From a virus, in the IMG/VR virus record IMGVR_UViG_3300043570_001980, positions 124,001-188,000 of that record: a DNA stretch of 64,000 bases, one strand, 5' to 3'. The stretch's first letter is position 1. Each line of letters begins with the position of its first letter. This document shows positions 24,365 to 53,201 of the stretch, in pieces. The notes under the pieces were generated by a model. The model did no database searches. It was not told where the DNA came from and was given only the letters and a program-made list of their open reading frames with translations. Made by a program: the position numbers and the translations under genes.

Positions 24365-24688
24365 ATGGCAATAACAAGCACTTATCCAGACGAATACAAG
24401 CAATGGCAACCCGAACGTACCGAGATCATTGGGGACCGAGCAGTAACGTTCCGTGATGTGTGTGTACACCAGATCCGTATGGGAGACGTAGACGATCCTG
24501 ATTTGTATGTGGCACAACCTATATATGAGTGGCAGGAATCTGATGCCGGCAAGTTCATCATGGAACATGCTGTGGAGAAACCTTACTGGACTCGTCAAGC
24601 AGATATTTCTAGTTATGGGCACTTGTATCGTATAATGGCAAGACTAAGTGAACAAGATCAAACTTTTTGGAAACTCAAATGGGGATAA
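24365..24688 (+). CDS. Hypothetical protein, 107 aa
   Basis: The promoter -10 lies 5 nt before the ATG, so the mRNA would be leaderless. The protein is soluble and acidic (YPDEYKQWQPERTEI, FRDVCVHQIRMGDVDDPDLY, QADISSYGHLYRIMARL). No recognised family. It heads the plus-strand transcription unit running towards the sugar genes, each following gene overlapping or abutting. Confidence 0.6.
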   Translation: MAITSTYPDEYKQWQPERTEIIGDRAVTFRDVCVHQIRMGDVDDPDLYVAQPIYEWQESDAGKFIMEHAVEKPYWTRQADISSYGHLYRIMARLSEQDQTFWKLKWG

Positions 24689-24927
24689 ATATCTTTAGGT
24701 TTTTCAAATCAATTGAAAGTCCTGAGCCTTTGGTGGATGGAATGTACGCTGATCAATACAGTAATCAGCAGATTCGAGACTATATTCTTTCTAGCTATCA
24801 AAAAAGATTTCCAATACCTGCAGAAACTCCAGAAACACATCCCTGGAAGTTTGATCCGCTTGATCCGCCGCAGGACTGGAGATTTGACCCTTACTACGAA
24901 CTTTGGATAAAAGAAAAAAATGAATAA
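24679..24927 (+). CDS. Hypothetical protein, 82 aa
   Basis: Start taken at the ATG overlapping the previous stop. Contains MYADQYSNQQIRDYILSSYQ and HPWKFDPLDPPQDWRFDPYY: aromatic and proline rich, soluble. Overlaps the TauE-like gene by 8 bases. Unknown function. Confidence 0.5.
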   Translation: MGINIFRFFKSIESPEPLVDGMYADQYSNQQIRDYILSSYQKRFPIPAETPETHPWKFDPLDPPQDWRFDPYYELWIKEKNE

Positions 24928-25870
24928 ACAAATAATTTGGCCCGTTTGGGCAGGCGCAGTACTAATCTCATGGTTATACTTGATCTTGACTGGACCTGGA
25001 TTTGTGTTGTATGACACGCACTGGTTGTATGCGTTAATGATGGTGTTTGGTTCGGCCATTGCAGGGTTTACACCTGAAGGCGGTGGTGCAGTTGCTTTTC
25101 CAATCTTGAGTCTATATTTTAAAATTACTCCTATGGCAGCTAGAGACTTTAGTCTGGCTATACAAAGTATCGGCATGGTGTCTGCGGCTATTTGGATTCT
25201 AACTAGAAAAGGTCATAGTCTATCAACTTTCAAATGGGTTCCTTTTTATGCACTAGTTAACTTTGCTGGATTTATCTTTATGTCTAGCCTTTATCATTTA
25301 ATTGCGTTCAAAGTAGTTCAGATGCTGTTTGTGAGTATGGCGCTTTCGTTTATTGTAGCATATTTGGTAACACGCAATACCAGTGATCAAGATAGTGTAG
25401 ACATAGACAGCAAAGAACGATTGTTAAGTTTTAGTATTTGGTCATTTATTGGTGGATGTGCTAGTGCTATGTTTGGCACAGGATCTGACATGTTGATTTA
25501 TATTGCTCTTACATGTTATTATGGCATGAAGGAGAAAATCAGCACTGACATCAGTATTGTTCTCATGGCAGTTGTTACTGTGTTTGGTATTGCCTACAGA
25601 GGATTAGTGCTTGATGATGTACAGCCTGAAGTATATTACATGTGGTTGGCAGCGGCACCTGTGGTGTTATTTTTTGCACCATTTGGTAATATTTTATTAG
25701 GGTGGGTCAAGAAAGAAACAATGTTATGGACTGTGCTTGCTATGAATGGTGTAAACTATTTTTACTTCATGAGTAAAAATCTTCCATTGGTTGTTCCTGC
25801 AGTAGTAACTCTATGTACAATGTTAGCTATATTTGTAGGTAGCTTTTATCTGAAAAAGAAATTACAATAA
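24920..25870 (+). CDS. TauE/SafE-family membrane transporter
   Basis: 316 residues with about eight hydrophobic segments and two similar halves. First half: AIAGFTPEGGGAVAFPILSL; second half: FIGGCASAMFGTGSDMLIY. Paired GG(x)A..G.G motifs are the mark of the TauE/SafE (sulfite/anion exporter) family. It would sit in the inner membrane. Substrate unknown; sulfite, sulfoacetate and other organic anions are reported for relatives. It starts the sugar-modification unit and may export a pathway by-product or be an independent metabolic gene. Confidence 0.78.
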   Translation: MNKQIIWPVWAGAVLISWLYLILTGPGFVLYDTHWLYALMMVFGSAIAGFTPEGGGAVAFPILSLYFKITPMAARDFSLAIQSIGMVSAAIWILTRKGHSLSTFKWVPFYALVNFAGFIFMSSLYHLIAFKVVQMLFVSMALSFIVAYLVTRNTSDQDSVDIDSKERLLSFSIWSFIGGCASAMFGTGSDMLIYIALTCYYGMKEKISTDISIVLMAVVTVFGIAYRGLVLDDVQPEVYYMWLAAAPVVLFFAPFGNILLGWVKKETMLWTVLAMNGVNYFYFMSKNLPLVVPAVVTLCTMLAIFVGSFYLKKKLQ

Positions 25871-25881
25871 GGCAATATAAA

Positions 25882-26850
25882 ATGAAAATATTAGTAACAG
25901 GTGGGTTGGGCCTTATTGGTCATAACGTCATCTCAAGATTACAAAATCTTGACCACACAACCTCAATCATTGATAACAAAACAACCTACGGAATTATTCC
26001 GCAGAGTGAGTTGGATTACTTGATGGAAGAGCGTATTAAAAAAATCCACCATCCTGGTTTTTATAATGCATCTATCGAGACTGCAGACACAGTTGATTAT
26101 GTGATGCAGGTGCAACAACCCGAAGTAGTTGTACACATGGCCAGTTTCCCCCGACAAAAAGTAGTCAATGCCAATCCAGCAAATGGCAGTCGTGTTATGA
26201 TGGAAGGCTTGATCAATCTGCTTGAGAGTGCCAAAAAGCATGGTGTTCGTCGATTTGTTTACATTAGTAGCTCAATGGTATATGGCGACTTTACTGATCA
26301 AGTCGAAGAAGATGCTGTGTGTAACCCACAGGGTCAGTATGGTATTATGAAGCTGGCAGGAGAGTGGTTGGTCAAAGACTATGCTCGACGAACTGGCATG
26401 GAATTTGTTATCATTCGTCCCAGTGCTGTGTACGGACCCTTGGATGTGGAAGATCGTGTGGTTGCTAAATTTATGCTTACTGCCATGCGTGGTGGGACGT
26501 TAAAAGTAAACGGTGCCAACGAAACACTAGACTTTACCTATGTTGACGATGCCGCCGATGGCATTGTCGCCGCGGCCACCATGCCCGGTGCTAAAAATCA
26601 CACATTCAACATTACTAAATCACACTCTGTGTCTTTATTGCAAGCGGCAGAAATGATTGTAAGTATAGTAGGCAGCGGCGAGATCGAGTGTAGAGATAGA
26701 GATGCAGACTTTCCCAGTCGCGGTGCGTTAAATATTAATCAGGCTCGTGCCATGTTAGGTTACGATCCCAAAGTTGATGTTCATGAAGGATTTCAAAATT
26801 ACTACAGCTGGCTTAACAATTCCCTTTACTGGGCTCCGAAAACAGTATAA
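25882..26850 (+). CDS. NAD-dependent nucleotide-sugar epimerase/dehydratase (extended SDR)
   Basis: 322 residues. Rossmann motif TGGLGLIG (6-13), VVVHMAS strand, YISSSMVYGD and the catalytic Tyr153/Lys157 in QYGIMK. IIRPSAVYGP follows. Typical extended SDR acting on dTDP-, UDP- or GDP-sugars. Next to two sugar aminotransferases and a DesII-like enzyme, it probably makes a keto or epimerised sugar for them. The next gene overlaps by about 68 bases. Confidence 0.85.
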   Translation: MKILVTGGLGLIGHNVISRLQNLDHTTSIIDNKTTYGIIPQSELDYLMEERIKKIHHPGFYNASIETADTVDYVMQVQQPEVVVHMASFPRQKVVNANPANGSRVMMEGLINLLESAKKHGVRRFVYISSSMVYGDFTDQVEEDAVCNPQGQYGIMKLAGEWLVKDYARRTGMEFVIIRPSAVYGPLDVEDRVVAKFMLTAMRGGTLKVNGANETLDFTYVDDAADGIVAAATMPGAKNHTFNITKSHSVSLLQAAEMIVSIVGSGEIECRDRDADFPSRGALNINQARAMLGYDPKVDVHEGFQNYYSWLNNSLYWAPKTV

Positions 26851-27880
26851 CAACATCAAAGAAGAAATTCTAGATGCCACAGATCGTGTATTGCGATCTG
26901 GTAATCTCATGAATGGAATCTATACCAAAGAATTTGAAACATGGTTAGCCAAGAAAAACAATAGCAAATATGCTATAACATGTCATAGCGGAACACAGGC
27001 ATTAGAAATAATCGCCCAATACTACATAACAAGAGACTGGGATAGCCGTTGCCATGTGTTAGTTCCAGCAATTACATATCCAGCTACCATCAATGCATTT
27101 TTGCGCTCAGGATGGGACGTTACTATTGTTGATACAGATGCATATGGGATAATGGATCGAGATCATGCCATGCCTGAATTAGTTAATTACAATGCTATTG
27201 TGTTAGTTGGACTGTACGGTGCACCTATACGCAACGGTTGGGAACTTATGGCAAATATCATAATTGAGGATGCCGCACAACATTGGCTAAGTGACCGTGG
27301 TCGACGAAAAGGTCATGCGGCAGCTATTAGTTTTGATCCAATGAAAAATCTAAGTTGTTACGGCAATGGTGGTGCAGTAATCACGGACGACCCAAAGTTA
27401 CACGAATATGCGCTGGGGTGGAGAGACAATGGAAAACCTGGACATACCATGACTGGCAGCAATAGTCGTATGAGTGAAGTTGATTGTGCAACAATGATGG
27501 TTAAAACAAAATACATTGATCAATGGCAACAGCGTAGAAGTAAAATTGCAGGATATTGGATTGAACATTTTTCAAAACAAAACATTAGAACATTAACTGA
27601 CAAATCAAATTATGTCGATCATTGTAATCACAAGTTTGTTGTTGACATAGACAGTCGAAACGAAGTTAAAAAAGAACTAATGCTTAGAAAAATTGAAACA
27701 AAAGTACACTACGAACTTCCGTTACACGAAATTCCATTATATGAATCAATTGTCGGCCCTGGAATGTTTTCTAAAGCCAGTGCATTGGCCAGACGAGTAT
27801 TGAGTTTACCCATATACCCTGAGCTGACAGACTTAGAAGTGGAATACATTGCAGATCAACTGATTGATATAGTTAAATGA
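26783..27880 (+). CDS. DegT/DnrJ/EryC1-family sugar aminotransferase 1
   Basis: 365 residues counted from ATG 26783 (an ATG six bases earlier is possible). IPFTGLRKQYNNIKEEI opens the fold; HSGTQALEI binds PLP phosphate; IIEDAAQHWL has the ring-stacking and Asp residues; FDPMKNLSCYGNGGAV carries the Schiff-base Lys188. These enzymes transfer an amino group from Glu to a keto-sugar nucleotide. Overlaps the epimerase end and the next start. Confidence 0.87.
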   Translation: MKDFKITTAGLTIPFTGLRKQYNNIKEEILDATDRVLRSGNLMNGIYTKEFETWLAKKNNSKYAITCHSGTQALEIIAQYYITRDWDSRCHVLVPAITYPATINAFLRSGWDVTIVDTDAYGIMDRDHAMPELVNYNAIVLVGLYGAPIRNGWELMANIIIEDAAQHWLSDRGRRKGHAAAISFDPMKNLSCYGNGGAVITDDPKLHEYALGWRDNGKPGHTMTGSNSRMSEVDCATMMVKTKYIDQWQQRRSKIAGYWIEHFSKQNIRTLTDKSNYVDHCNHKFVVDIDSRNEVKKELMLRKIETKVHYELPLHEIPLYESIVGPGMFSKASALARRVLSLPIYPELTDLEVEYIADQLIDIVK

Positions 27881-29259
27881 CAAGATTAGGTTACACACAC
27901 AGCAAAGTCGAAGGCCCGACAAATGCAGACATTTTGCACCTAGACCCTGTGTCTCAACAGGTGTGTAAGTTACTGTCAGATGATCCATTTATTACTCAAA
28001 GAGAAATTGCAAAACAGCTATCAATCTCTGCCAACGAACTACTAGTAATATCTAGTAAGATCAGAGAAGATCAACCAGCTCAGAATTACATATTGTATCA
28101 TGGTGGCGGCACAAAATATTGGACCAATACAATCACTCCATTGCTGACAAACGGATCATTACATGCGGCCATTGATCACAGTTACATGTACCCAAATCGT
28201 ATCGGACTGTACACTGGTATGAGCTGTATGTTCTACTGCAACTTTTGCGGACGAAATCCTGTGGCCAAATACGAAAAGAAATTTGAGCAATATGGATTTG
28301 ATGTTTTCAAACAGATTATTGATCAAGACATTAAAACTGATGCATTCTGGGATGACCGATTTCGTATCAGTGGGGGCCTAGAGCCGCTGACCAACAAGTA
28401 TCTAGGCAACATTATTACCTACGGTGCCGAACGTGGATATAAAATGCAATTATACACCAACGGCTATATGATGACTCGGAAATACATAGAACAACATCCA
28501 GGAATGAAAGACCTTCATGCTGTTCGTTTTAGTTTGTATGGTGTTGATGAACAAAGTGCATTTAAAGTAACTCGTCATTCTGAGAGTTATCATCGTATTG
28601 TTGAAAATATCATTGAGTATATCAATTCAACACACAATGTTCGTGTGGGAGTTAATTGGATCATACTGCCTGGCCACTCAAAGGATGTTGTTAAGTTATT
28701 AAACATCATTGACTATATTAATTCACGGACCGTGCGTCCTGTGGATTTTGTAACATTGAGAGAAGACTTTAGTCAAAATGTGCGCATCATCAGCGACGAA
28801 GAAAGAGTGCATCTTGTTGATATTTTTAATTTGATTAAAGATTTTAAAACAAATAAATGGCCGGCCACACATTGGGATTTTGGATATGCACTAGAACCGC
28901 TGGTGCATGGAAAAAATTCTGGACCATTGTCAATGATTTCCTGGAAAGAAATGGTGCCAACTAGCTTTCCTCAAGTGGCTGTAGCAGTTGACGTCAAGGG
29001 AGATGTATATGTCTATCACGAAAGTGGATTCTTAGATCGACCAGGTGCTGAAAGATATATAATTGGAAACACAGTTAACAGTAGCATAGAAACCGTAGTG
29101 CAAGAATTTGTTAACTCTAAAAAAACAATAAGACCGTCGCCACCTGATGTTGGATATTTAGATGCATTCGACCATGTGGTAAGTAGATTAATCAATCAAG
29201 CTCGAGACGATGAAAAATTTGGAATCTCGTGGAACCAAGGACCAGTAAAATGTCGATAA
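27877..29259 (+). CDS. DesII-like radical SAM enzyme (amino-sugar deaminase type)
   Basis: 460 residues. Cluster motif CMFYCNFC with Cys117, Cys121 and Cys124 binds [4Fe-4S] and SAM, followed by GR. The N-terminal about 75 residues contain a helix-turn-helix-like segment (ITQREIAKQLSISANELL). Length, GMSC..CxFCGRNP context and two flanking DegT aminotransferases match dTDP-4-amino-4,6-dideoxyglucose ammonia-lyase (DesII), which removes C4-NH2 to give a 3-keto sugar. The DesII assignment is inference; the radical SAM fold is directly supported. Confidence 0.72.
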   Translation: MTRLGYTHSKVEGPTNADILHLDPVSQQVCKLLSDDPFITQREIAKQLSISANELLVISSKIREDQPAQNYILYHGGGTKYWTNTITPLLTNGSLHAAIDHSYMYPNRIGLYTGMSCMFYCNFCGRNPVAKYEKKFEQYGFDVFKQIIDQDIKTDAFWDDRFRISGGLEPLTNKYLGNIITYGAERGYKMQLYTNGYMMTRKYIEQHPGMKDLHAVRFSLYGVDEQSAFKVTRHSESYHRIVENIIEYINSTHNVRVGVNWIILPGHSKDVVKLLNIIDYINSRTVRPVDFVTLREDFSQNVRIISDEERVHLVDIFNLIKDFKTNKWPATHWDFGYALEPLVHGKNSGPLSMISWKEMVPTSFPQVAVAVDVKGDVYVYHESGFLDRPGAERYIIGNTVNSSIETVVQEFVNSKKTIRPSPPDVGYLDAFDHVVSRLINQARDDEKFGISWNQGPVKCR

Positions 29260-30347
29260 CAATACCATACGCAAATTTATATAGCGAATACCTAGAAGTA
29301 AAAATTCCAGTTGACCAAGCCATTGAACGTTGTATTACAAACAGTTCATTCATTGGCGGGGAAGAAGTTTTAAAATTTGAAACTGCCTGGAAAGACTACA
29401 CGCAGTCAGAAGATTGTGCCGGAGTAAGCAGTGGCACAAGTGCATTGATGTTGTCTTTGTGGGCCGTGGGAGTTCGTCCCAGCGACGAAGTGCTTGTTCC
29501 AAGTATGAGCTTTGTTGCGTCAGCTGAGTGCGCTAGTCAACTAAATGCTCGTCCTCGTTTTATTGACATTGATCAATACTATACTATGGACCTTGATCAA
29601 ATTGAGTCAAAACTTACAAATAAAACCAAAGCAATTATTGTGGTGGATCTTTATGGTCAAACTGTGGATATAAAGAAGCTCAAGGAGATTGCCAACGGCA
29701 TCCCAATCATACAAGATGCGGCTCAAAGTTCTGGATGCAGGTACCTTGGAAATTCAATTGGCAGCCAGGCAGATTTAACATGTTTTAGTTTTTACCCAGG
29801 AAAAAATTTAAGTGCCATGGGAGATGCAGGTGCAGTTACAGGTCGTCAGGAATTAGTTAAACTTGTTAAAATGCTTAGAGATCACGGAAGAAAAGAAAAA
29901 TACGTACACGAGACTATTGGCTGGAATGAAAGACTAGATTCTATGCAGGCAGCGATTTTATCAGCCAAACTAGATCATTTAGATACCTGGAATCAACGAC
30001 GTATAGAAAATGCATCTGTTTATTACAATATGTTATCTAACTGTGACAAAATACAATTGCCAAAAGTAAACAGTAATGTGAGTACCCACGTTTATAATCA
30101 ATTTGTTATTGCAACAGATTGTAGAAATGAATTAAAAGAATTTCTTTCAAGTCGTGGAATTGAAACTGGTATACAATTTCCACTGGCATTACATAAACAA
30201 CCGGTGTATGCTAGAATGGCAGGTACGGATAGTTTTCCAAATAGTGAACGGCTAGCAGACTCGTGTTTGAGTTTGCCAGTACATGCACAAATTACCACTG
30301 CACAGGCAGAAACTGTGGCCAAAGCTGTAATAGATTTTTTTAACTAA
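29250..30347 (+). CDS. DegT/DnrJ/EryC1-family sugar aminotransferase 2
   Basis: 365 residues; ATG 29250 overlaps the radical SAM gene's stop. Motifs: SSGTSALML, IIQDAAQSSGC, FSFYPGKNLSAMGDAGAV with Schiff-base Lys185, and DHGRKEKYVHETIGWNERLD. Closer to the classical ArnB/DesV type than copy 1. In a DesI-DesII-DesV-like order it would aminate the 3-keto product. Its 3' end overlaps 8 bases with the convergent gene at 30340. Confidence 0.87.
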   Translation: MSITIPYANLYSEYLEVKIPVDQAIERCITNSSFIGGEEVLKFETAWKDYTQSEDCAGVSSGTSALMLSLWAVGVRPSDEVLVPSMSFVASAECASQLNARPRFIDIDQYYTMDLDQIESKLTNKTKAIIVVDLYGQTVDIKKLKEIANGIPIIQDAAQSSGCRYLGNSIGSQADLTCFSFYPGKNLSAMGDAGAVTGRQELVKLVKMLRDHGRKEKYVHETIGWNERLDSMQAAILSAKLDHLDTWNQRRIENASVYYNMLSNCDKIQLPKVNSNVSTHVYNQFVIATDCRNELKEFLSSRGIETGIQFPLALHKQPVYARMAGTDSFPNSERLADSCLSLPVHAQITTAQAETVAKAVIDFFN

Positions 30348-31971
30348 CGTTGCCGTAACGTTCTGAGAAATAATTTCTTAACCATTGCCAGTTAAAACTA
30401 TTTTTTCTGTATTCATAGTTGTCTTTATATGCTAGATAAAATTCTCGGCCGTCTTTGGCTCCTATCAATGCCCACTCAGCATAGTCGCCGTCAGCAACTG
30501 TTTCCCAAATATTAATTCTATAATCAGTTTCAATTGTTGGAGTTCGAGACTGTATATCATATAATTTACTGACTTCTCTAAATGCAGTTCTCCAGGTGTG
30601 GTATGGACTTGTGTTAAAATTACCATAGGTGCTGATAATTGGCACAACTTCGTGTGGGAAACTCATTGTATAATCTAGTCCAAATTCCTGGCCAATGTTA
30701 TCTAGTATAAGATTACAATTGTACATGATAACAGCCATTTCTCCGTAGACTAATTTGTTTACACGATTCTCGCTGTAAAAGATATAGTGTTTAGGCTGTT
30801 GAAAATAGTCAGGCTGGAATGTAAAATCAAAATCTGGGTGTAACTCTGTCTTGCCAAATACTGCAAAGTACCAGGGTGTTTGACTAGCCTTAGCAGCCTC
30901 GGCCAGAGCATTCTCCATTCCAACCACACCATGCACACGTTTAGCTCGAGGAAATTTTGTTAACAATTTTTCATAGTTTACATCTGCCTCGGGCTCATCG
31001 TAGCTAATAAACACAATATCTTGCAATGCAAGATCATGACTAATCTGAGTTTTATCAATGTACGGATAGTCGTAGACTTGTGTGTTAATTGTAGACAATG
31101 CTGTTCGTGGAATTAATGCACAATCGTTATTTGGGGACAATGTAATAACTGTCTTAGTTAGTTCTCTCCATAGATTAACAGTTGGGTACACCATTGGAGG
31201 ATTTTGAACAGTAAACAATCCTACCGGACCATAAAAAGAGTCAGGATCTAATGCAGTAACTTGTGTGTCGCAGGAATGTTGTATTACTGGTACTGGCCTG
31301 CGTTTAACTTGCAAGTCAACAAAGTTTAAATCATACCACTCGAGTAATTCTTTACCCTTAATTCTTTCAATAAACGTTGGCACATGCATTAAAAATGTAT
31401 CACCAAACTTTTGTTCATTGCTAGGAAATACATGTAACAACTCTTTTTGCCAAGGATCAGGATGCCATGTAAAATCAAAATTAGTATAATCACAGATTGT
31501 AGAGCAAATCCAAATGTATTCAAGATTGTCATTGCTAGCTGTTTTAGCAATGCGTGTTAGAGTGTCAAGATAATTGTCAAAATATCTAACCACTTTTTTA
31601 ATTGTGATTTTTTCCGACAGAGTATTCAATGCTAATTCTAGAGAATTATCCATATGATCTATTAAGTATATATCGCTAGATTGTCTAGTGAGAACAACCA
31701 TGTCTGTATGGTAATTGGTATCCGTGAATCCAGTTTTTGGTACTAGATAAGTACCCGAATCTTTTTGCCACTGACTAGGAAATACATGCTGTTGATTTGC
31801 TTGCCAGGGTGCTGGTTCCCAAAGAAAATTAAACTCAGAATAGCTCGATAAGTAATTTACGACCCAACAATATCGAGTGCGACTTAGTTCGCAGGCCTGC
31901 TCCGTGCTTGTTACTGCACGTTCATGCACAAACAATCCTGGTTTTTTTCCTATATAGAATATATCAAACAT
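30340..31971 (-). CDS. Three-repeat phage protein with SYDEP domain, 543 aa
   Basis: Three copies of a 60-residue unit: residues about 20-79 (FLWEPAPWQANQQHVFPSQW), 135-198 (FTWHPDPWQKELLHVFPSN) and 350-416 (FTFQPDYFQQPKHYIFYSEN). Before the third comes IVFISYDEPEADVNYEKLL..FPRAKRVHGVVGMENA, shared with the protein at 50067. The SYDEP/KRV.GV pattern suggests a nucleotide-sugar-type (GT-A like) fold, but no DxD is clear. It is the only minus gene in this plus unit; its ATG overlaps the ATG of the next plus gene in CATG. Confidence 0.6.
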   Translation of the reverse strand: MFDIFYIGKKPGLFVHERAVTSTEQACELSRTRYCWVVNYLSSYSEFNFLWEPAPWQANQQHVFPSQWQKDSGTYLVPKTGFTDTNYHTDMVVLTRQSSDIYLIDHMDNSLELALNTLSEKITIKKVVRYFDNYLDTLTRIAKTASNDNLEYIWICSTICDYTNFDFTWHPDPWQKELLHVFPSNEQKFGDTFLMHVPTFIERIKGKELLEWYDLNFVDLQVKRRPVPVIQHSCDTQVTALDPDSFYGPVGLFTVQNPPMVYPTVNLWRELTKTVITLSPNNDCALIPRTALSTINTQVYDYPYIDKTQISHDLALQDIVFISYDEPEADVNYEKLLTKFPRAKRVHGVVGMENALAEAAKASQTPWYFAVFGKTELHPDFDFTFQPDYFQQPKHYIFYSENRVNKLVYGEMAVIMYNCNLILDNIGQEFGLDYTMSFPHEVVPIISTYGNFNTSPYHTWRTAFREVSKLYDIQSRTPTIETDYRINIWETVADGDYAEWALIGAKDGREFYLAYKDNYEYRKNSFNWQWLRNYFSERYGNVS

Positions 31972-35299: not shown

Positions 35300-35300
35300 A

Positions 35301-40845: not shown

Positions 40846-40846
40846 A

Positions 40847-45662: not shown

Positions 45663-46974
45663 ACCATTCTTTAAGATTAGGAAATGCCTGAGCAAAATCT
45701 TTACCGCGGCGCTGATCATATTGTGCATGAAACTTGTAAAAATCATTCAGCAATTTAGGCATGTCAAACGCATCCGAGTGCGGAGTTTTTACCACGTCTA
45801 GATAATCAATTAATCGCTGAGTGTGATTAATTTCGTGTTCGTGCAAATAGCTGTGACCTTTGTGTTTACCCATCCAGTCAATTAAATCTTGTTTGTATTG
45901 ATTTCTTAAAGATTCACCGAGTACCAATGCACTTTGGAAACTGGGGAATCGCAGGATATTCAGTGTAAAATTAATATAGTCACGACCGTAGATTTTTTTC
46001 CATTCAATCAGTTGGTCTAAATGTTTAGGAAGGCTATCCAGGCACAAAGCATTAATAGTACACATACAATGTACCACTATACCAGCATCCAATAGTTTCA
46101 GCACATTAGCACACCACGCTTGATAGTCTAGACCGTCTCGAATGTATTCTGCTTGTGTACCCACTGCTTCCATGCTTGTGTATATTTCTACTTGCAAGCC
46201 TTTAATACTGTCTAGTAAACGATCTATGTCTACTTCAGCACCTAAATTTGAATTAATTGCCAATTGTGTGTGGCTACGCCCGGGATTGTTTTTAAACCAG
46301 TCAATCAGTTTCCAGGTCTCACCTGACATCAATGGCTCACCACCGGTTATTCTGAGCTCCTGAAGAGTTTGGTGGAGGTCGCTTTCCCACCAAGCAAAGA
46401 ATGCGTCCACATAAGGATTTTGTTCTCCAAACTTGTAAAGTTGGGAGGCAGCGTGATCATGAGTAAAATGATTCCTGCCATCGCTAACCAAGCCCTGGTA
46501 AGCGCCGTTGTTTCGTATATCTTTAACCCATGTACTACTAAAAGCAGGATTACAGTAGCTACAAGCAAACTGGCAAGTGCGATCAAACGCAATCTCTAGT
46601 GTTCGAAGATTGATGTCATTGCTGGCCGGAGTGCGGAAAGCATGATTTAAGTCCTCTATAGGGTAAATTTTACTTTTGTATACACGGTCACTGATTGCAT
46701 CTCGGCCAATGTCTTCAATTTTCCAGCAGTATTCACAACCGCTAGGACGCTCACCTTTCTGCATCATTTCTCTATCGGCTTTTTTTCTCTGTGTGTTATG
46801 TAACGCTGATGGGTTGCGTTTAATATCATCTACATCAATAGCGTGTGCCGGTGGATGATGACAGCTAGTTGTTTGGCCTGATCCTAGCCATATAGTAGCA
46901 TTGTACCATTTGGCCGCACAGAAACTAGAACTTTTGGTATCTAATATTTGTTGTCGGAATTCTAAATCATTCAT
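45643..46974 (-). CDS. Twitch-type radical SAM protein 4 (SCHHPP subtype)
   Basis: 443 residues from ATG 46974. Second subtype: FCAAKWYNATIWLGSG then SCHHPPAHAI in place of the PW..CC opening; NPSALHNTQRKKADREMM; CEYC (80-83); radical SAM Cys134, Cys138, Cys141 in FDRTCQFACSYCNPAFSSTW; LRITGGEPLMSGETW. Shares SxxHPP, NPxALHNT and AFSSTW features with protein 5. Confidence 0.85.
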   Translation of the reverse strand: MNDLEFRQQILDTKSSSFCAAKWYNATIWLGSGQTTSCHHPPAHAIDVDDIKRNPSALHNTQRKKADREMMQKGERPSGCEYCWKIEDIGRDAISDRVYKSKIYPIEDLNHAFRTPASNDINLRTLEIAFDRTCQFACSYCNPAFSSTWVKDIRNNGAYQGLVSDGRNHFTHDHAASQLYKFGEQNPYVDAFFAWWESDLHQTLQELRITGGEPLMSGETWKLIDWFKNNPGRSHTQLAINSNLGAEVDIDRLLDSIKGLQVEIYTSMEAVGTQAEYIRDGLDYQAWCANVLKLLDAGIVVHCMCTINALCLDSLPKHLDQLIEWKKIYGRDYINFTLNILRFPSFQSALVLGESLRNQYKQDLIDWMGKHKGHSYLHEHEINHTQRLIDYLDVVKTPHSDAFDMPKLLNDFYKFHAQYDQRRGKDFAQAFPNLKEWYDSIQV

Positions 46975-48118
46975 CGAAGTGACTTTGTTTAATAAATTGC
47001 AGGAATCGTCTAGGAAATTCTTTACGCACAGTTTGGCGCATTTCAAGCAGATGTTGTTGATTGTATTTACATACATTATAACACGATTTGAGGAATTCAT
47101 CAAGATCTTGCTTACACAAATCTTCAACTATTTGTGTAATACGTGTGAGTCTATCCTGCGTATTGTCAATTTCATCAAAACTTTCATCAATCACATGTGA
47201 AAATGTTTGAAATCCTAGATTGCGCATGTCTCGATAGTATCCTCGATTGGCTGCCGCTATCCACGGGTGTCCAATAGCCACAGGTTTCCAAATTTTTTCA
47301 GTTCTAAAACTATACGGATAGTCACATACTGTTTCGGAAACTAGACTAAAATATGTATCAATATAAGGTTCTGCTTTGAGATAGATTTCTCCCCATTCTT
47401 GATCAAACAGATTGTGTTTAATAAAGCCTAATTTGGGCACTAGATCAATGTTGTTACAATAACGATCAACTTCGTATTTGGATGGCAACAGGTGTGGTTC
47501 TCTCAAAGTAAACATCTGATCCTGCCCATTAAATGGCACAGATAAATTTGAGTACATACTTTTTCTTGATTCAAGACTAGTCCACAGACTTTGATCTAAC
47601 AGTCCCATTAAATCAAGTTTTTCTATTAGGAATTTTCTATGTCCTCTCAAGCGGCCATTTAAAAACAAAAATTTAAAAGGCTTGTTGGGCGTGGAGTACA
47701 AGGCCTCTGACCGATTAATCTCTATTAGATTTTGTTTATAGTCATGTATCTTGGGCAAGAAACTATCATAGACTAAACACGGCCAGTCTGGCTCCATGTC
47801 TCCGCCACCGATTAATAAAATACGCCCTTGCACAACAAGATCGGCAATGTTATGCACACTCTCACAATGTGCTTTTAACGTTTCGCTACCTTCAGCTGGA
47901 TTGCTTAATACAACACGTATAGTGTCAGATTCAACTAACTCACGAATTCTCTCTTTATTCAAATTAAATTGTGTTCGACCTATAATATAAATTGCACCCG
48001 GAACAATAGTGTGATTACTAAAATCATAAAAAGACTCATCTTCCCAGGGTAGTAGTTGATCGTAGACTTCGCAAAATGTATCTAGAATAAGTTTACGTTT
48101 GTCTAGCATGGTACTCAC
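46967..48118 (-). CDS. Putative glycosyltransferase, TEKxW family
   Basis: 383 residues. FKFLFLNGRLRGHRKFLIEKL and LLDQSLWTSL (148-182) and TEKIWKPVAIGHPWIAA (from Thr273) with YRDMRNLGFQTFSH..ESFDEIDNTQDRL: both family motifs are complete. Sits between the two SCHHPP-type radical SAM genes, overlapping both, which ties glycosyl transfer to the radical chemistry. Confidence 0.65.
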   Translation of the reverse strand: MSTMLDKRKLILDTFCEVYDQLLPWEDESFYDFSNHTIVPGAIYIIGRTQFNLNKERIRELVESDTIRVVLSNPAEGSETLKAHCESVHNIADLVVQGRILLIGGGDMEPDWPCLVYDSFLPKIHDYKQNLIEINRSEALYSTPNKPFKFLFLNGRLRGHRKFLIEKLDLMGLLDQSLWTSLESRKSMYSNLSVPFNGQDQMFTLREPHLLPSKYEVDRYCNNIDLVPKLGFIKHNLFDQEWGEIYLKAEPYIDTYFSLVSETVCDYPYSFRTEKIWKPVAIGHPWIAAANRGYYRDMRNLGFQTFSHVIDESFDEIDNTQDRLTRITQIVEDLCKQDLDEFLKSCYNVCKYNQQHLLEMRQTVRKEFPRRFLQFIKQSHFDE

Positions 48119-49508
48119 ATTCTTTCCACCAATCTGACATTTCAGGAAATGTTTTTAAAAAATCTGTTCCTCGTCGAGAGTCGTGTTCGTTAAAAAATCT
48201 ATAAAAATCAGCACGATTTTTATTAACGTAACCTTGTTGCAACTTCTGTCCATCTTTCATCCAGGCAATATCTCTGCGCAGGCGTTGTACTTCGTAGTCT
48301 TTAAATCCGTGAAATGGGTTGCTAGGGGTTTCTAAATTAATTTCCATCCAATCAGCAATTCGTTCAAGTATGCTTGCATAGGCTGGTGGAAGTATTTGTA
48401 GACTTTGCCAGGTTGGTTGTCTAAGAAGAGGCGTATCAAACCAAACACGCTGATAGGTATGGCTATGTTGTTTTCGTAATTCTAATATCCATTCCAATTG
48501 TGTTTTTAACCCTAACACACTTAGATTGTTCATGGTAATAATAAATGTCAAACTATTACGATTAGGAATGTCCAACAAGAAATGATTTACACGGCTTTGC
48601 ACACGATAAAAATCCATGCCATGGCGAATGTATTCAGCATGCTCTGGTATGCCTGAATCCAAACTAACATACTGCATAAAATGTTCAATGTTGGTGTTAC
48701 ATAACTGTTTAACATAATCAAAATACTTGTTCCATAACTGCGGTTCTACGCTAAAGTTACTGGTAACATTTAAATGCAACTCAGGGTTGGGTAGTGCTAG
48801 CACATAGTCAAATACCTTGTAGGTATTTTTATCCATTAGAGGCTCGCCACCAGTCATGCGAAAATGTTTTAGTTTAGGATATAATGTAGGCCACCACTTC
48901 CAGAACGCTTCCACATAAGGGTTCTCGTGACTAGCTGGTATAGGTCGATTGCGGCCAGTGAAGTGGCTAGGATCATTATGGATAATACTAGTAGGATATC
49001 CGCCTGAGCGTTGTACTTCTGCTTGCCAGGTGCTACTAAATTGTGGACTGCAATAGCTACAAGATAGATTACAAGCGTGATTAAAATTAACTTCGACATA
49101 ACTAGGCACAACATCTTCATTGCCTGTTGAGTTTTTTATTTGTTCAAAATCCATTGCGGCCCAAGGTTCACCGCTACGATAGTGTCTATCACTTAGTTTT
49201 CCTAGATCCTCCATGGTCCAGCAATAACTACACTCCGAAGGTCGCTCGCCGTTGAGCATCATTTTACGCTGTTCTTTTTTATATGGAGTATTGTGTAATG
49301 CTCCAGGATTATGTCCAATTTCTTCTATGGGTATTCTATGCAATGGTGGATGATAACAACTGTTGTTCATTCCGGTGGGCAGATGAAGGCTAACTTGTTT
49401 CCACTTGGCCAAACACAAGCTAGGTCCTAGCACAGTTTTCATATCTTCTGCAGAACTTAAAAATTCAGATTTAAAGTCTGTTAATTTTGTGTCAACTTTA
49501 TTATTCAT
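48093..49508 (-). CDS. Twitch-type radical SAM protein 5 (SCYHPP subtype)
   Basis: 471 residues. LCLAKWKQVSLHLPTGMNNSC and YHPPLHRIPIEEIGHNPGALH; CSYC (93-96); radical SAM Cys146, Cys150, Cys153 in FNHACNLSCSYCSPQFSSTW; FRMTGGEPLMDKNTY. Longest of the set, with a C-terminal YRFFNEHDSRRGTDFLKTFPEM block also present in protein 4 (FHAQYDQRRGKDFAQAFPNL). Confidence 0.85.
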   Translation of the reverse strand: MNNKVDTKLTDFKSEFLSSAEDMKTVLGPSLCLAKWKQVSLHLPTGMNNSCYHPPLHRIPIEEIGHNPGALHNTPYKKEQRKMMLNGERPSECSYCWTMEDLGKLSDRHYRSGEPWAAMDFEQIKNSTGNEDVVPSYVEVNFNHACNLSCSYCSPQFSSTWQAEVQRSGGYPTSIIHNDPSHFTGRNRPIPASHENPYVEAFWKWWPTLYPKLKHFRMTGGEPLMDKNTYKVFDYVLALPNPELHLNVTSNFSVEPQLWNKYFDYVKQLCNTNIEHFMQYVSLDSGIPEHAEYIRHGMDFYRVQSRVNHFLLDIPNRNSLTFIITMNNLSVLGLKTQLEWILELRKQHSHTYQRVWFDTPLLRQPTWQSLQILPPAYASILERIADWMEINLETPSNPFHGFKDYEVQRLRRDIAWMKDGQKLQQGYVNKNRADFYRFFNEHDSRRGTDFLKTFPEMSDWWKECEYHARQT

Positions 49509-50073
49509 TTAAAATATTTTGTAAAAAATCAAAAAGTTGCTCGGTACCTTTAACATTTAGATGTCCGTCATCAAGTCGACCATTTGGACCAATCATGGGA
49601 TATTCTAACTGGCGAACCGTTTTTCTGTTTTCCCAGGAAAATCCAAGAACTTTTTTGTTACAAGAATTTAAAAAACTAATTGATGTGTCGATTAACATGT
49701 CACTTAAATTTTCACTATACGGAGGACCAAAAACAGAATAAAAATATTTGTACATCTCAGTGTGTGCAATATCAAGTGTTGCTGGCTCAAGAGCCAGTCC
49801 TTTACCGTGAAACCCTGTAAAAAAATCTAAATTCTGATCGTTATATTTTAATCCAAATCTAGACGAATATGTAAAACCTAATACAAATATATCGGCATTT
49901 TGAAAATTTTGATAAGCATCAAATGCAATAGACATATTACTTTTACCTTGCCTTGAGTTGTCAATTACTTGATACCCGCCGCGAGTATTAAATAGGCTTC
50001 CTAAAGAATCTTGTCTTTTAAGACCTTGCCCGTAGGTCAAACTACATCCGTCAAGGTATAATCGTGTTACCAT
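49501..50073 (-). CDS. SGNH/GDSL-type hydrolase, 190 aa
   Basis: YLDGCSLTYGQGL with presumed nucleophile Ser11 at the very N-terminus, DNSRQGKSNMSIAF as the Asn block, and DDGHLNVKGTEQLFDFL with the catalytic-type Asp/His pair near residue 170. Minimal SGNH domain without extra domains. In a glycan-modifying cluster it could be an O-acyl esterase or transferase. Overlaps both neighbours by 7-8 bases. Confidence 0.68.
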   Translation of the reverse strand: MVTRLYLDGCSLTYGQGLKRQDSLGSLFNTRGGYQVIDNSRQGKSNMSIAFDAYQNFQNADIFVLGFTYSSRFGLKYNDQNLDFFTGFHGKGLALEPATLDIAHTEMYKYFYSVFGPPYSENLSDMLIDTSISFLNSCNKKVLGFSWENRKTVRQLEYPMIGPNGRLDDGHLNVKGTEQLFDFLQNILNE

Positions 50074-50993
50074 CCTTCTTGTTCCCTTATTACATCTAGT
50101 TCGCGTGTCATTATACCTCGGTTGTGCCAGTTGCTCAGATAATGATGTTTAAAAAATTCACTTTCTTCTCGACCCAACACAATGACAGGTAAATCCAGTT
50201 GTTGATTTAGATCGGCAGCAATTCTATCAAACACGATTTCTGGAGTGTGATCTTTGACAGTATCCCACAAAGTTGCTAACGCATCAAAATTTTGAACTAG
50301 CCGATAATCCCAGTCGGTTAGCATGGTCATGTAAGTGCCCATTCTGCTGCCGGCAATGGCCCAGGCACCGTTTTCAGCATCAGTTCCTACATTATGCCAA
50401 ATTGTAAGATGATCAAAATTACGTTTATGCACACGATCTCTAAATTCAGCCACTGATGGTTTATGACCTTTGTCTAGGCACATCTTGACACCTTCTCTAA
50501 ATCCTGCTCGCCAGGCCTGGAACGGTGTTCCGTTTGGATAGGTAGTACTGTAACAATCATACATGGCAAAGTAATTAGGCTCAAAACAAAACTCAACAAG
50601 ACTTTCATCTCGTCCATCTGTGTTTTCATGAGTTTTCATATTCCACACAAACTCTCGAGTCCAAGAACTTAATCCTCCATTACCATACATTAATCCGTTG
50701 ATATGATTACGTGCTCTCCAACGAAACACTGAATTGTGTTTATCATCATCTTTAAAATCTAATGTTAGATTAAAAAATTTCGAATCTGGCAAATTGTCGC
50801 CGTCGATTAAAATAAATCGTTCTGTTTCGCTGACATCACCAGCGGCTTTGTGTGCGGCATCTGAGCCTTTAACACCATCCACACGTTTGGCCCAGGGAAC
50901 CATGTTTTTAATCTTGACCCAGAATTCTTCTTTCTGTGGTTCATCATAGCTGAGGTAAATCACATCAAGATCAGCAATATCAACTTGTTTCAT
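50067..50993 (-). CDS. SYDEP-domain protein, putative glycosyltransferase-like, 308 aa
   Basis: LDVIYLSYDEPQKEEFWVKI, PWAKRVDGVKGSDAAHKAA and RFILIDGDNLP: the last is a DxD-like IDGD that fits metal and nucleotide-sugar binding in GT-A folds. The same SYDEP and KRV.GV.G segments precede repeat three of the 543-aa protein. Function inferred; the shared family in this window is clear. Confidence 0.58.
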   Translation of the reverse strand: MKQVDIADLDVIYLSYDEPQKEEFWVKIKNMVPWAKRVDGVKGSDAAHKAAGDVSETERFILIDGDNLPDSKFFNLTLDFKDDDKHNSVFRWRARNHINGLMYGNGGLSSWTREFVWNMKTHENTDGRDESLVEFCFEPNYFAMYDCYSTTYPNGTPFQAWRAGFREGVKMCLDKGHKPSVAEFRDRVHKRNFDHLTIWHNVGTDAENGAWAIAGSRMGTYMTMLTDWDYRLVQNFDALATLWDTVKDHTPEIVFDRIAADLNQQLDLPVIVLGREESEFFKHHYLSNWHNRGIMTRELDVIREQEGW

Positions 50994-51327
50994 TAGTTCT
51001 TAAACTCCATTTTATATTAGGTATAGAATTATCTACAACAACACAGATATCCCTAGGATCACAGGGTATTCCTGTGTCTCCTGGCACCAATTTATTAGTG
51101 ATAGTGTGTTTTATATAGATTAATTTATTGTCGACTACTCGAACATTACTTGGCAACAAGGAAAATGTTTCTCTGTCGATTTCAATATAATTACCTGGCA
51201 CATCCTCCATGCTATAAAATAAAGGAAAGCCTGCATCATCATGATATAAACGATAAAATATTGGTTTTGGTGTCGGTAGATCCCATTCGTTGAATGCTTT
51301 CCAAAAATTTTCTGTAGTTTCATTCAT
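50980..51327 (-). CDS. Conserved phage protein of unknown function, 115 aa
   Basis: Beta-rich: PIFYRLYHDDAGFPLFYSME, GNYIEIDRETF, VRVVDNKLIYIKHTITNKLVP, GIPCDPRDICVVVDN. I recall similar proteins next to glycosyltransferases in T4-like cyanophages, without known function. Overlaps both neighbours; part of the same minus-strand unit. Confidence 0.6.
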   Translation of the reverse strand: MNETTENFWKAFNEWDLPTPKPIFYRLYHDDAGFPLFYSMEDVPGNYIEIDRETFSLLPSNVRVVDNKLIYIKHTITNKLVPGDTGIPCDPRDICVVVDNSIPNIKWSLRTNETS

Positions 51328-52099
51328 TGGCTGTGGCCCAATCTTTTATATGATAATGAAAGAATCCACTTTGTGTAATTGTGTGTATCCTTAATCCAGG
51401 GTCTGCATTTTCCCAGACTAGTTCTTTGCTCCAATTGCCGGTATGTGTGGGTATAATATAACGCTTCATATGAACAATTGTAGGACCAAAATTTGTTGGT
51501 AATACACAATTCTCAATGCCGACTATTTTGGCAGCCATGGCATATACTAAATCAGTTGTAGGGATATCGTCGGGGAATTTTAATAATTTTTTAAAGGACT
51601 CCCAGTCAGAAAATATTGCCCTTACTAAATCAAAAAATTCCTTGGCTGTTTTACTCACACGCCAGTAAGTTATAGCATTGTAAACATCAGGCAAGTTGTT
51701 AGAATCAAAAACTTTTCTGTAATATCTTGACTTACTTATCTGTCCGTAAAAATCTCTACAGCCTTGACTGATTGCCACATCTTGGTGTTCAAACAATGTC
51801 CACCAGTGGTCCACAGCACTTGTGGCAATCATGTCTGCTTCTAGTTTAATAGTTTGTCTATAAGGACTAGCGGCAAATACTTGCCAGTCGTTGGCATATC
51901 CTCCTAGGTCACCGTGTGGCAACGGAATCACATGATCGAACACAGGGTCACTGCATTGTTTTACTGACAGTACAGAGATATTGGCATCTGGATGCCACTG
52001 GCGAATAGATCTAGCAAGTTGTACAGCACAACCCAAGTAGTCAACAGAGTCAGTGTCAATTGCCGGAATAAGATAACCACGTTCAGCAAGGATTGGCAA
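51320..52099 (-). CDS. GT-A-like nucleotide-sugar transferase, 259 aa
   Basis: N-terminal YLIPAIDTDSVDYLGCAVQL and SIRQWHPDANISVLSVKQC resemble the nucleotide-binding start of GT8/GT-A transferases; TIKLEADMIATSAVDHWW provides an E-A-D in place of DxD. FFHYHIKDW closes the fold. Sister gene at 52083 has a fuller DxD. Together they look like tandem glycosyltransferases of the kind seen in T4-like cyanophages. Confidence 0.62.
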   Translation of the reverse strand: MPILAERGYLIPAIDTDSVDYLGCAVQLARSIRQWHPDANISVLSVKQCSDPVFDHVIPLPHGDLGGYANDWQVFAASPYRQTIKLEADMIATSAVDHWWTLFEHQDVAISQGCRDFYGQISKSRYYRKVFDSNNLPDVYNAITYWRVSKTAKEFFDLVRAIFSDWESFKKLLKFPDDIPTTDLVYAMAAKIVGIENCVLPTNFGPTIVHMKRYIIPTHTGNWSKELVWENADPGLRIHTITQSGFFHYHIKDWATANE

Positions 52100-52889
52100 C
52101 GATGGCTCCTAGTTGTTGTTTGCCCATGGCGTGAAAGTCACAGTTTTTAATATCCACCCAACGAGGTTTTCCTTCACTGTTATTAAAATCAATTCTATAA
52201 TAGTCTTGACTAACTTGTGACAGTTTATGTGAAGGTGTTACACTGGCCAAACTCCAGGGAATTGCTGGATGATCCGTTGTGTGTCCATTTAACATGCAAA
52301 GAGAAATACTTAGTGCATGGTCGTTACGATAAACAGACCTACCTGTTCCGTAGATATTTTTATAATGTTGCCAATTTTGTTTAATCATTGTCATTGACTC
52401 AAATAGCAATTGTGATTCTTGGCTGCGTTTAAAATACATCACTGTGGCCCACCACATGGGCATTTTATGTCGACCGAAATAATTTAAATCTTCAAAGTCT
52501 TGTGTGCCTGTGAGGTCGTAGGCCCACCGATGACATAAAAAATTTTGAGTTGTATTCAATGCACATTTTAATTGATTACTAGCTACTACATAATCGGCGT
52601 CAAGCACTAATGTGTTATCCCAGGGACTTAGACTATATGCATCGGTTCTGTTAGAATTAAACCACGGTACAGACTTACCAATGTCATCAAAGAAACGATA
52701 GCCGCCGGCATCAGTTGATGCAGTGATCACTTGATCAAACTTATTAAGATAACCCGAATCGGACACGTTGGTGACCACTGCTACCGGAATACCCAGGTGA
52801 CGTTTTATATTATCAGCTGACCAGGCCGCTAGGGCAAGATAATCAATGTTGCTGTTGTTGAATGCAAAGATCAACGCACCAGTTGTCAT
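52083..52889 (-). CDS. GT-A-like nucleotide-sugar transferase, 268 aa
   Basis: GALIFAFNNSNIDYLALAAW, GIPVAVVTNVSD and TLVLDADYVV: the DADY motif is a DxD-type metal site. FNNSNIDY..LA and the later RNDHALSIS and DFHAMGKQQL match phage glycosyltransferases of this subgroup. Overlaps the sister gene by 17 bases. Confidence 0.66.
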   Translation of the reverse strand: MTTGALIFAFNNSNIDYLALAAWSADNIKRHLGIPVAVVTNVSDSGYLNKFDQVITASTDAGGYRFFDDIGKSVPWFNSNRTDAYSLSPWDNTLVLDADYVVASNQLKCALNTTQNFLCHRWAYDLTGTQDFEDLNYFGRHKMPMWWATVMYFKRSQESQLLFESMTMIKQNWQHYKNIYGTGRSVYRNDHALSISLCMLNGHTTDHPAIPWSLASVTPSHKLSQVSQDYYRIDFNNSEGKPRWVDIKNCDFHAMGKQQLGAIVANPC

Positions 52890-53194
52890 CTTTTTTTGCC
52901 TAATTCTTCATACTCGAGTAACCATGCATTCATTTGTTCCTGCCAGCGACCAAGGGCCAAGTATTGTAATTCTGTTGGATTGATTTTTACAGGATTACCA
53001 TACAAATCTAAAATTACAATATCATCGTCCACTGAGCAGGCATGTAACAATGTCAATAACTCAGGACCTGCCTGCCACATTCCTCCGTTATAAGCAAATA
53101 TCATTTTGCCCTGGTACTTTTCTTTAAGGATGCGTTTTGTGGCCGCATGTTCAAAACGGGCACGTGAGTGTGCAATCAAGTTGTCATTATTCAT
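52886..53194 (-). CDS. Conserved phage protein, 102 aa, first gene of the minus unit
   Basis: NLIAHSRARFEHAATKRILK then GKMIFAYNGGMWQAGPELLTLL and a DDDIVILDLYGNPVKI strand pair. Similar short proteins are common in T4-like phages; function unknown (recollection). A TATAAT box ends 7 nt before its ATG, so its mRNA would be leaderless. It heads the unit that runs about 18 kb to the halogenases. Confidence 0.68.
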   Translation of the reverse strand: MNNDNLIAHSRARFEHAATKRILKEKYQGKMIFAYNGGMWQAGPELLTLLHACSVDDDIVILDLYGNPVKINPTELQYLALGRWQEQMNAWLLEYEELGKKR

Positions 53195-53201
53195 ATAGTC
53201 A

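Follow-up and report, generated by a model that had tools for sequence, protein, structure and literature searches.

A phage gene island of radical SAM enzymes, a carbamoyltransferase and glycosyltransferases beside tail genes may encode a decoration of virion tail proteins

The fibrils of Megavirinae are associated with glycan clusters of 6–33 genes (PMC10117803). Like the phage studied here, these are large DNA viruses with clustered nucleotide-sugar enzymes and glycosyltransferases, and their clusters make unusual amino-sugars of the virion surface; however, they are viruses of eukaryotes, and the abstract does not mention a core of twitch radical SAM, carbamoyltransferase or amidinotransferase genes (PMC10117803). 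By contrast with the Megavirinae clusters, the acceptor and product of the phage island are putative. Virion proteomics detected glycoproteins in the Xanthomonas jumbo phage XacN1, which has its own glycosyltransferases; however, these are only two, and radical SAM and carbamoyltransferase genes are not mentioned (PMC5852040). PF04820 halogenases of cyanophages, such as VirX1 of Syn10 (PMC8407142), also lie among structural genes and share about 30% identity with those of the island. Unlike in the studied phage, no twitch radical SAM island is annotated around them. The 5-hydroxymethylcytosine system also includes a phage carbamoyltransferase, with Pfam families common to that of the island (PMC8670742); however, its partner thymidylate-synthase homolog was not found in the studied record, and the island enzyme has glycosyltransferase neighbours instead. 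Several twitch-type radical SAM genes lie together in the isolated Vibrio jumbo phages K566/K567, but they share 21–25% identity with those of the island, these phages have no u40 (the core protein described below), and no carbamoyltransferase is annotated in the stretch read. Aminoglycoside and deoxysugar natural-product clusters (StrB1, TobZ, DesI/DesII/DesV, NovN) share the enzyme logic of the island, with DegT, DesII-like, amidinotransferase, O-carbamoyltransferase and glycosyltransferase genes. Unlike them, the island is phage-borne, lies beside tail genes and contains no recognised scaffold or cyclitol synthase. The preliminary description of this DNA knew of no phage system combining these families, and none was found in a literature search of incomplete coverage. 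A near-identity DNA search of isolate phages gave no match.

IMGVR_UViG_3300043570_001980 is a 342-kb uncultured phage with a cluster of about 20 enzyme genes next to its tail genes. The window, which is the whole stretch of 64,000 nucleotides that was analysed, contains the island at positions 24365–53194 as two convergent units, plus and minus. The decoration system in two opposing units proposed in the preliminary description agrees with the presence of the convergent unit downstream of u40 in 71/71 lineages, with a separate sigma-70-type promoter for each unit, distinct from the late promoter that serves the tail genes, and with tail genes as island neighbours in 15/15 phages read. The genes had also been described as overlapping at almost every junction, which is the case for 15 of the 16 junctions of the minus unit after refinement of start codons by hand; the sole gap, of 99 bp, separates u40 from the carbamoyltransferase. 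Broken genes would have spoken against a working system; however, all the island genes are open, and a dN/dS of 0.04–0.14 for nearly all those with a close relative indicates purifying selection. Profile searches verified nearly all of the enzyme families named at first reading. The plus unit contains the following genes:

24365–24688, plus strand: first gene of the unit, 107 aa, with the extended −10 promoter TGCTATAAT ahead of it
24920–25870, plus strand: TauE/SafE-type membrane exporter, accessory (PF01925, 1.8e-13; 7 hydrophobic segments)
25882–26850, plus strand: extended SDR nucleotide-sugar epimerase/oxidoreductase (PF01370, 1.5e-44; TIGR01181 below cut-off)
26783–27880, plus strand: DegT PLP aminotransferase 1, in DesI-like position, QdtB/DesV/WbpE family (ATG picked by hand)
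27877–29259, plus strand: DesII-like radical SAM protein with CMFYCNFC (TIGR04426, 339.7 bits)
29250–30347, plus strand: DegT PLP aminotransferase 2, DesV-like (PF01041, 2.8e-98)
30340–31971, minus strand: 543-aa glycosyltransferase-like protein inside the plus unit, found in 60/80 related loci
31970–33085, plus strand: GT-B-like glycosyltransferase with an E...TEKxxKP motif, from alignment (predicted model, pLDDT 91.6)
33085–34245, plus strand: second glycosyltransferase of the same family, from alignment
34238–35299, plus strand: arginine:X amidinotransferase, AGAT/StrB1-type (PDB AGAT, E 9.6e-23; also HsvA, SxtG and StrB1)

Although this had been described as the plus unit, the gene of the 543-aa protein is on the minus strand; Pfam and PHROG searches gave no match for that protein. 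Relatives of the 107-aa first gene occur in 23/80 loci, and TauE was not found in the related loci read. The Asp-Glu pair found in 4,6-dehydratases is missing from the epimerase (SSSMVYG). The DesII-like protein misses the TIGR04426 equivalog cut-off of 450 bits and is therefore called DesII-like only; its gene accompanies the DegT pair in relatives. Aminotransferase 2 is nearest to DesV and QdtB (PDB 2oga, 1.8e-75; 7b0d, 2.2e-78). The assignment of the amidinotransferase combines homology with the invariant catalytic residues Cys338 and His199.

The minus unit ends against the plus unit and starts next to the tail genes:

35301–36539, minus strand: flavin-dependent halogenase 2, accessory (PF04820, 1.3e-91)
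36536–37795, minus strand: flavin-dependent halogenase 1, accessory (PF04820, 3.8e-92; RebH, 1e-59; VirX1, 1.1e-49)
37770–39260, minus strand: aryl-CoA/acyl-adenylate ligase, benzoate-CoA-ligase-like, accessory (PF00501, 7.2e-59)
39251–40747, minus strand: O-carbamoyltransferase, NodU/TobZ-type, core (PF16861, 6.8e-48; PF02543, 4.5e-36)
40847–41935, minus strand: u40, 362-aa phage-only core protein, fold without solved relative
41904–43202, minus strand: twitch radical SAM 1, core, the next gene upstream of u40 (NF033640, 284.7 bits)
43195–44400, minus strand: twitch radical SAM 2, core (NF033640, 339.9 bits)
44397–45665, minus strand: twitch radical SAM 3, core (NF033640, 394.8 bits)
45643–46974, minus strand: twitch radical SAM 4, core (NF033640, 299.6 bits)
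46967–48109, minus strand: glycosyltransferase of the family of 31970–33085, from alignment
48093–49508, minus strand: twitch radical SAM 5, in 72/80 loci (NF033640, 317.1 bits)
49501–50073, minus strand: SGNH-hydrolase-like protein with DGCSLTYGQG (motif read; no Pfam match)
50067–50993, minus strand: GT-A-like protein with DLDVIYLSYDEP ... DGD (motif read), in 45/80 loci
50980–51327, minus strand: 115-aa protein without family call
51320–52099, minus strand: glycosyltransferase-like (phrog_1903, 2.9e-6, no function given)
52083–52889, minus strand: glycosyltransferase-like
52886–53194, minus strand: first gene of the unit, 102 aa, in 12/15 intervals read
53195–53260, minus strand: terminator hairpin AAAGGGCC..GGGCCCTTT, then sigma-70 promoter TTTACT-17-TATAAT, splitting the tail genes from the minus unit

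The five N-terminal-twitch radical SAM proteins all contain CxxxCxxC and, at 284–395 bits, exceed the curated NF033640 cut-off of 170 bits. The carbamoyltransferase, related to NovN, GdmN and TobZ, has both Pfam domains and keeps the HHxxHA and GPRALGxR motifs. Both halogenases pass the PF04820 cut-off (308–310 bits) and have the FAD-binding GxGxxG motif as GGGTAGW; halogenase 1 has the catalytic Lys and Glu motifs and a WxWxIP motif (GWIWEIP), which is altered to GWLWDTG in halogenase 2. The nearest PDB entry to the acyl ligase is benzoate-CoA ligase (2v7b, E 4.8e-87), and its 372.6 bits fall just under the TIGR02262 cut-off of 375.25. The SGNH-hydrolase-like gene, judged from its motif, may encode an acyltransferase or esterase. 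The hairpin and promoter arrangement at 53195–53260 is kept in most close relatives.

The conserved u40 was missing from the gene list of the preliminary description. The u40 family is seen only in phages. Its predicted fold is confident; however, comparison with the PDB gave no match by sequence and none by fold at E ≤ 0.001, Pfam gave chance-level matches only, and a sequence search of isolate phages gave no match. Agrobacterium phage Atu_ph07, suggested as a carrier by a BFVD fold match, was rejected because it had no match in the profile search. A u40 profile searched against viral contigs matched at least 528 of them. Synteny was counted in 93 dereplicated lineages, with those having enough flank as denominators. 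A twitch radical SAM gene is directly upstream of u40 in 89/90 lineages, at least four are upstream in 73/73, and the carbamoyltransferase is directly downstream in 84/87. Together with glycosyltransferases, 4–5 twitch radical SAM enzymes, u40 and the carbamoyltransferase make up the conserved core, to which exchangeable accessory enzymes are added. Co-occurrence at chance level would have refuted the preliminary description; instead, the combination of twitch radical SAM, u40 and carbamoyltransferase genes is nearly invariant. The inclusion of halogenases in this co-occurring core was wrong: together with the acyl ligase, they are found in 1/71 lineages. The 4/80 loci that carry them are two near-identical pairs, and these genes are therefore classed as accessory. 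The amidinotransferase is common (39/71). In relatives, a swappable slot is occupied by methyltransferase, APS-kinase-like and additional radical SAM genes, as would be anticipated for glycan loci.

Two u40 matches were found among 84,980 genomes. Contigs of the first bin, TMED46, match proteins of the studied phage at 61–72%, and the second contig shares phage proteins weakly; both are likely misbinned viral DNA, and a bacterial source of the island was dropped. Strong twitch radical SAM matches occur in 2/245 bacterial genomes, once in long phage-looking contigs and once as a lone chromosomal gene, a context which is uninformative about substrate.

The island is located 28–39 kb downstream of the baseplate wedge gene and co-oriented with it in 22/22 records having a match. 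A giant virion protein of 4,200–5,070 aa precedes it in 15/15 intervals, all of which contain fibre-like genes, Ser/Thr-rich in the studied phage:

53267–54253, minus strand: fibre-like protein, 31% Ser+Thr, candidate acceptor
54275–55705, minus strand: fibre-like protein, 23% Ser+Thr, candidate acceptor (PHROG virion/tail fiber matches), preceded by the late promoter TATAAATA
56532–64000, minus strand: C-terminal part of the giant virion protein (4,760 aa in full; phrog_10938), which runs past the window end

Adjacency to these genes and the solubility of the island enzymes favour virion tail proteins as the probable target. Every island enzyme but TauE, which alone has multiple hydrophobic segments, scores as soluble or nearly so, and no flippase, polymerase, lipid-linked glycosyltransferase or lipid-carrier enzyme was recognised among the island genes, which fits a cytoplasmic acceptor. 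Glycosyltransferases are clustered with nucleotide-sugar enzymes, as is characteristic of virion glycosylation clusters, and the island lacks the combination of membrane flippase and membrane glycosyltransferase that defines Gtr-type O-antigen seroconversion. It is quite unlikely that the island instead modifies host-surface glycans, blocking adsorption of sister phages through altered nucleotide sugars or LPS or capsule precursors (superinfection exclusion). The sigma-70-type promoters of both units and the reliance of nucleotide-sugar enzymes on host precursors agree with such superinfection exclusion, but the lack of a recognised flippase, polymerase or lipid-carrier enzyme, and the confinement of multiple hydrophobic segments to TauE, which was not found in relatives, argue against it.

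Expression from the sigma-70-type promoters would not depend on the late genes; this agrees with DNA or host targets too and is counted against a tail glycan. Hypermodification of phage DNA with a carbamoylated sugar-like group, evading host restriction, is considered unlikely. A phage-type carbamoyltransferase making 5-carbamoyloxymethylcytosine is known (PMC8670742), the island promoters are not late-type, and some relatives have a dCMP-deaminase-like gene in their variable slot. In a Foldseek search of the PDB, the predicted model of the glycosyltransferase at 31970–33085 best matched GT-B glycosyltransferases with weak TM-scores of 0.3–0.4, T4 DNA beta-glucosyltransferase (BGT) being top (8e-4), with WaaG and BshA also matched; the T4 match, although its TM-score is low, weighs against a tail glycan. 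However, the ThyA/dCMP-hydroxymethylase family (PF00303) is absent from the record, which may be incomplete, and the thymidylate synthase present is ThyX-like. Furthermore, the carbamoyltransferases flanked by glycosyltransferases were those of unmodified contigs in PMC8670742, and a DNA target would account less well for the position on the tail side and for the large number of exchangeable decorating enzymes.

Another explanation, rather unlikely, is a diffusible small molecule, for example an inhibitor, or a RiPP-like peptide modified by radical SAM enzymes, made during infection. Natural-product clusters typically contain genes for aryl-CoA ligases, halogenases, carbamoyltransferases, amidinotransferases and DesII-like enzymes, and the island has a TauE-type exporter; however, neither the ligase nor the halogenases nor the exporter belong to the core, and tail adjacency would be left unexplained. 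SPASM/twitch radical SAM enzymes commonly act on peptides and proteins, and peptides could be the substrates here, but the conserved gene order includes no evident gene for a short precursor peptide. Such activity is also compatible with radical SAM enzymes modifying the backbone or side chains of tail proteins directly, with a separate role for the glycosyltransferases, which is the least probable of the alternatives. Giant and fibre proteins are adjacent, and the paralogs, at least four, are invariant whereas glycosyltransferases vary among lineages; however, the interleaving of radical SAM genes with glycosyltransferase and carbamoyltransferase genes suggests a common substrate.

The reading held with moderate confidence is that the island is a cytoplasmic assembly line for a guanidino-, carbamoyl- and radical-SAM-remodelled glycan on tail proteins. 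The AGAT, DesV and TobZ/NovN homologies match amino-, guanidino- and carbamoyl-sugar chemistry, and the GT-B-like fold predicted for a core glycosyltransferase is also counted in favour. The enzymes would be made in the cytoplasm early in infection, and the epimerase, DegT and DesII-like enzymes would convert host nucleotide sugars to amino-deoxysugars; soluble glycosyltransferases would assemble an oligosaccharide or attach it. Guanidino groups would be made by the amidinotransferase, the twitch enzymes may oxidise, epimerise or deoxygenate unactivated C–H positions, and the carbamoyltransferase would cap hydroxyls; a halogenated aroyl group is possibly added in the studied phage. The adjacent late genes, which would be expressed later, encode the most likely acceptor, either a Ser/Thr-rich tail-fibre protein or the giant virion protein, and the decoration may mask the virion or tune adsorption. 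A sugar nucleotidyltransferase was not found in the phage record, which is counted against this tail-glycan reading.

To our knowledge, radical SAM enzymes have not been recognised as virion-decorating tools. We propose only tentatively that the island represents a new kind of decoration, a radical SAM pathway with u40 at its centre that produces a hypermodified glycan or amino-acid change on tail proteins. Should the product sit on the virion, this would mean that phages conceal or direct their tails with glycans of natural-product grade; the island would then link both the N-terminal-twitch radical SAM enzymes, which are uncharacterised, and the fold of u40 to substrates, and offer a plausible role for the long-puzzling halogenases of cyanophages. 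Such a decoration, bearing guanidino, carbamoyl and halo-aroyl groups, would give a large group of uncultured phages a virion coat without chemical precedent.

The enzyme-gene island (window 24365–53194) is real, widespread, phage-only and biosynthetic, with an invariant radical SAM core. Matches in PHROGs to a portal, baseplate wedge, tail-lysozyme hub and late sigma factor identify the record, by gene content, as a tailed phage; at DNA level, none of 50,697 isolate phage records is closely related to it. The window encodes 25 tRNAs plus one tmRNA (tag ANDSQFALAA) at 1694–8737 and 11944–12365, and a ThyX-like thymidylate synthase (phrog_85) at 22705–23376; a ThyA family member is absent from the record. 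Three more twitch radical SAM genes lie beyond the island, at record 14322–15560, 302119–303231 and 303260–304312, and two of them are convergent neighbours.

Record 124001–188000: the window, part of the 341,990-base virus record
Window 34238–35299: amidinotransferase, grouping with the arginine amidinotransferases AGAT, HsvA, SxtG and StrB1
Window 40847–41935, minus strand: u40, previously unnamed 362-residue protein
Window 41904–46974, minus strand: radical SAM 1–4, core twitch radical SAM genes

The enzyme families named in the preliminary description are present in the island, according to profile and sequence comparison. The second DegT protein is nearest to DesV- and QdtB-type sugar 3-aminotransferases, and the radical SAM enzyme between both DegT genes is DesII-like, with a score below the DesII cut-off. 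The catalytic Cys and His of the amidinotransferase are invariant. The carbamoyltransferase is nearest to NovN, GdmN and TobZ, the ligase to benzoate-CoA ligases, and five twitch radical SAM proteins score above the NF033640 cut-off. An SGNH-hydrolase-like gene (23369–24343) is positioned just 5′ of the plus unit, and a few relatives have homologs adjoining the island. Near-universal gene overlap, as initially described, was borne out for the minus unit, in which 15 of 16 junctions overlap when start codons are refined by eye on translations; the remaining one is a 99-bp gap between u40 and the carbamoyltransferase. Gene breakage, which would have spoken against the system, was examined through dN/dS: values of mostly 0.04–0.14 for island genes with a counterpart in one relative (mostly 86–98% protein identity) show that these genes are functional. 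The dS of neighbouring genes spans 0.12–1.55, which suggests gene exchange within the island.

The island carbamoyltransferase matches 272 viral contigs, and about 70 of the best 80 keep radical SAM 1–4 and u40 in the same order. A u40 profile, run as an independent search, identified at least 528 confirmed viral relatives. The pooled loci, dereplicated at 90% u40 identity, form 93 lineages, with denominators varying by feature. The proposed co-occurrence of twitch radical SAM, carbamoyltransferase and halogenase genes holds for the first two, since radical SAM 1 is immediately upstream of u40 in 89/90 lineages and the carbamoyltransferase immediately downstream in 84/87, but not for the halogenases, found with the ligase in 1/71. 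In 73/73 lineages, u40 has four or more twitch radical SAM genes upstream; a 543-residue-type GT-like gene downstream and the convergent unit are each kept in 71/71. DegT, epimerase and amidinotransferase genes occur in 56, 53 and 39 of 71. These counts define the core as the radical SAM–u40–carbamoyltransferase block plus the GTs. The slot between the carbamoyltransferase and the opposing unit varies: it contains the ligase and halogenases in the window phage, and methyltransferases, APS-kinase-like proteins, dCMP-deaminase-like proteins or additional radical SAM enzymes in relatives. APS-kinase-like and dCMP-deaminase-like genes occupy it in two compared stretches (L067 12132–14394, L084 12087–14203), and sequences resembling them occur in 45/160 and 27/160 loci. 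Three further, more distant contigs also carry a DegT–DesII–DegT cassette. A jumbo-phage-like stretch (L218) of a 335-kb contig from a bacterial genome bin shares the island's GT families and encodes four twitch radical SAM enzymes; neither u40 nor the carbamoyltransferase was found in the 20 kb covered.

No sequence relatives of u40 were detected in Pfam, PHROG, NCBIfam or the PDB. Its AlphaFold2 model, based on 47 homologs (pLDDT 88.3, pTM 0.87), matched nothing in the PDB at E ≤ 0.001 and 10 uncharacterised phage proteins in BFVD (Foldseek). Numerous invariant polar residues (H124, E128, H160, E161, E163, D233, E234, D259, E261) make u40 look like an enzyme. No isolate phage record matched it, and it was detected in 2 of 84,980 bacterial genomes, both contigs probably being misbinned viral DNA.

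The baseplate wedge gene, detected in 22 of 24 related records, is located 28–39 kb from the island core gene on its upstream side in all 22. In 15/15 intervals the order begins with the wedge, a 4,191–5,066-residue virion protein, a 200-residue protein and at least one fibre-like protein; the first minus-unit genes come next inside the stretch in 12/15. The virion protein of the window phage (4,760 residues; window 56532–64000, continuing to record base 194814) has a weak carbohydrate-binding-module match. ATAAATA is about 16-fold enriched upstream of genes in the window phage, which fits a T4-type late promoter served by the phage's own late sigma factor; the motif precedes the fibre gene 54275–55705. 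The minus unit begins, beyond a hairpin terminator, with TTTACT-17-TATAAT in place of the ATAAATA-type late promoter; an equivalent sigma-70 promoter is retained in most upstream stretches of relatives. At the start of the plus unit stands TGCTATAAT; either this sequence or TGCTATACT occurs in several relatives. These promoter calls, which are consensus matches as opposed to measured transcripts, indicate that the island may be expressed independently of the tail genes, and probably earlier.

Enzyme families, conserved architecture, position, promoters and selection are directly supported, and the pathway steps and target are what we infer. No sugar nucleotidyltransferase was found in the record; the host would supply nucleotide sugars for conversion to amino-deoxysugars, which would be guanidinylated and assembled by soluble GT-B-like GTs. 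Twitch radical SAM enzymes could then remodel C–H positions, and the product could be O-carbamoylated. Neither a lipid-carrier step nor a flippase or polymerase step was recognised, which makes a cytoplasmic acceptor probable; TauE is the only island protein with several hydrophobic segments. DNA is the leading rival target, given the known phage carbamoyltransferases that modify 5-hydroxymethylcytosine (PMC8670742); however, the thymidylate-synthase homolog required for that route was not found in the record, whose own thymidylate synthase is ThyX-like. The most parsimonious candidate acceptors are the adjacent tail proteins; Ser and Thr make up 31% and 23% of the window's two fibre-like proteins.

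No description of the island's enzyme combination was found in the literature searched, whose coverage excluded most subscription journals. At the enzyme level the island resembles aminoglycoside and deoxysugar tailoring, and it may work like the virus-encoded glycan clusters of Megavirinae (PMC10117803). Virion glycoproteins have been reported for jumbo phage XacN1 (PMC5852040). The island halogenases belong to the family of the cyanophage halogenase VirX1 (PMC8407142), and cyanophage halogenases are also placed among structural genes. In Synechococcus phage Sf-CH11 (L222 7844–11123), prolyl-hydroxylase/2OG oxygenase genes flank the halogenase and a structural gene adjoins, a context that suggests virion protein modification there too. 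The isolated Vibrio phage K566 has a separate cluster with several twitch-type radical SAM genes (L085 19986–26722) and offers a cultivable system for testing this family. In kind, the island is best read as a viral self-encoded decoration system with tail proteins as a candidate target, and the chance that it is more than that is credible.
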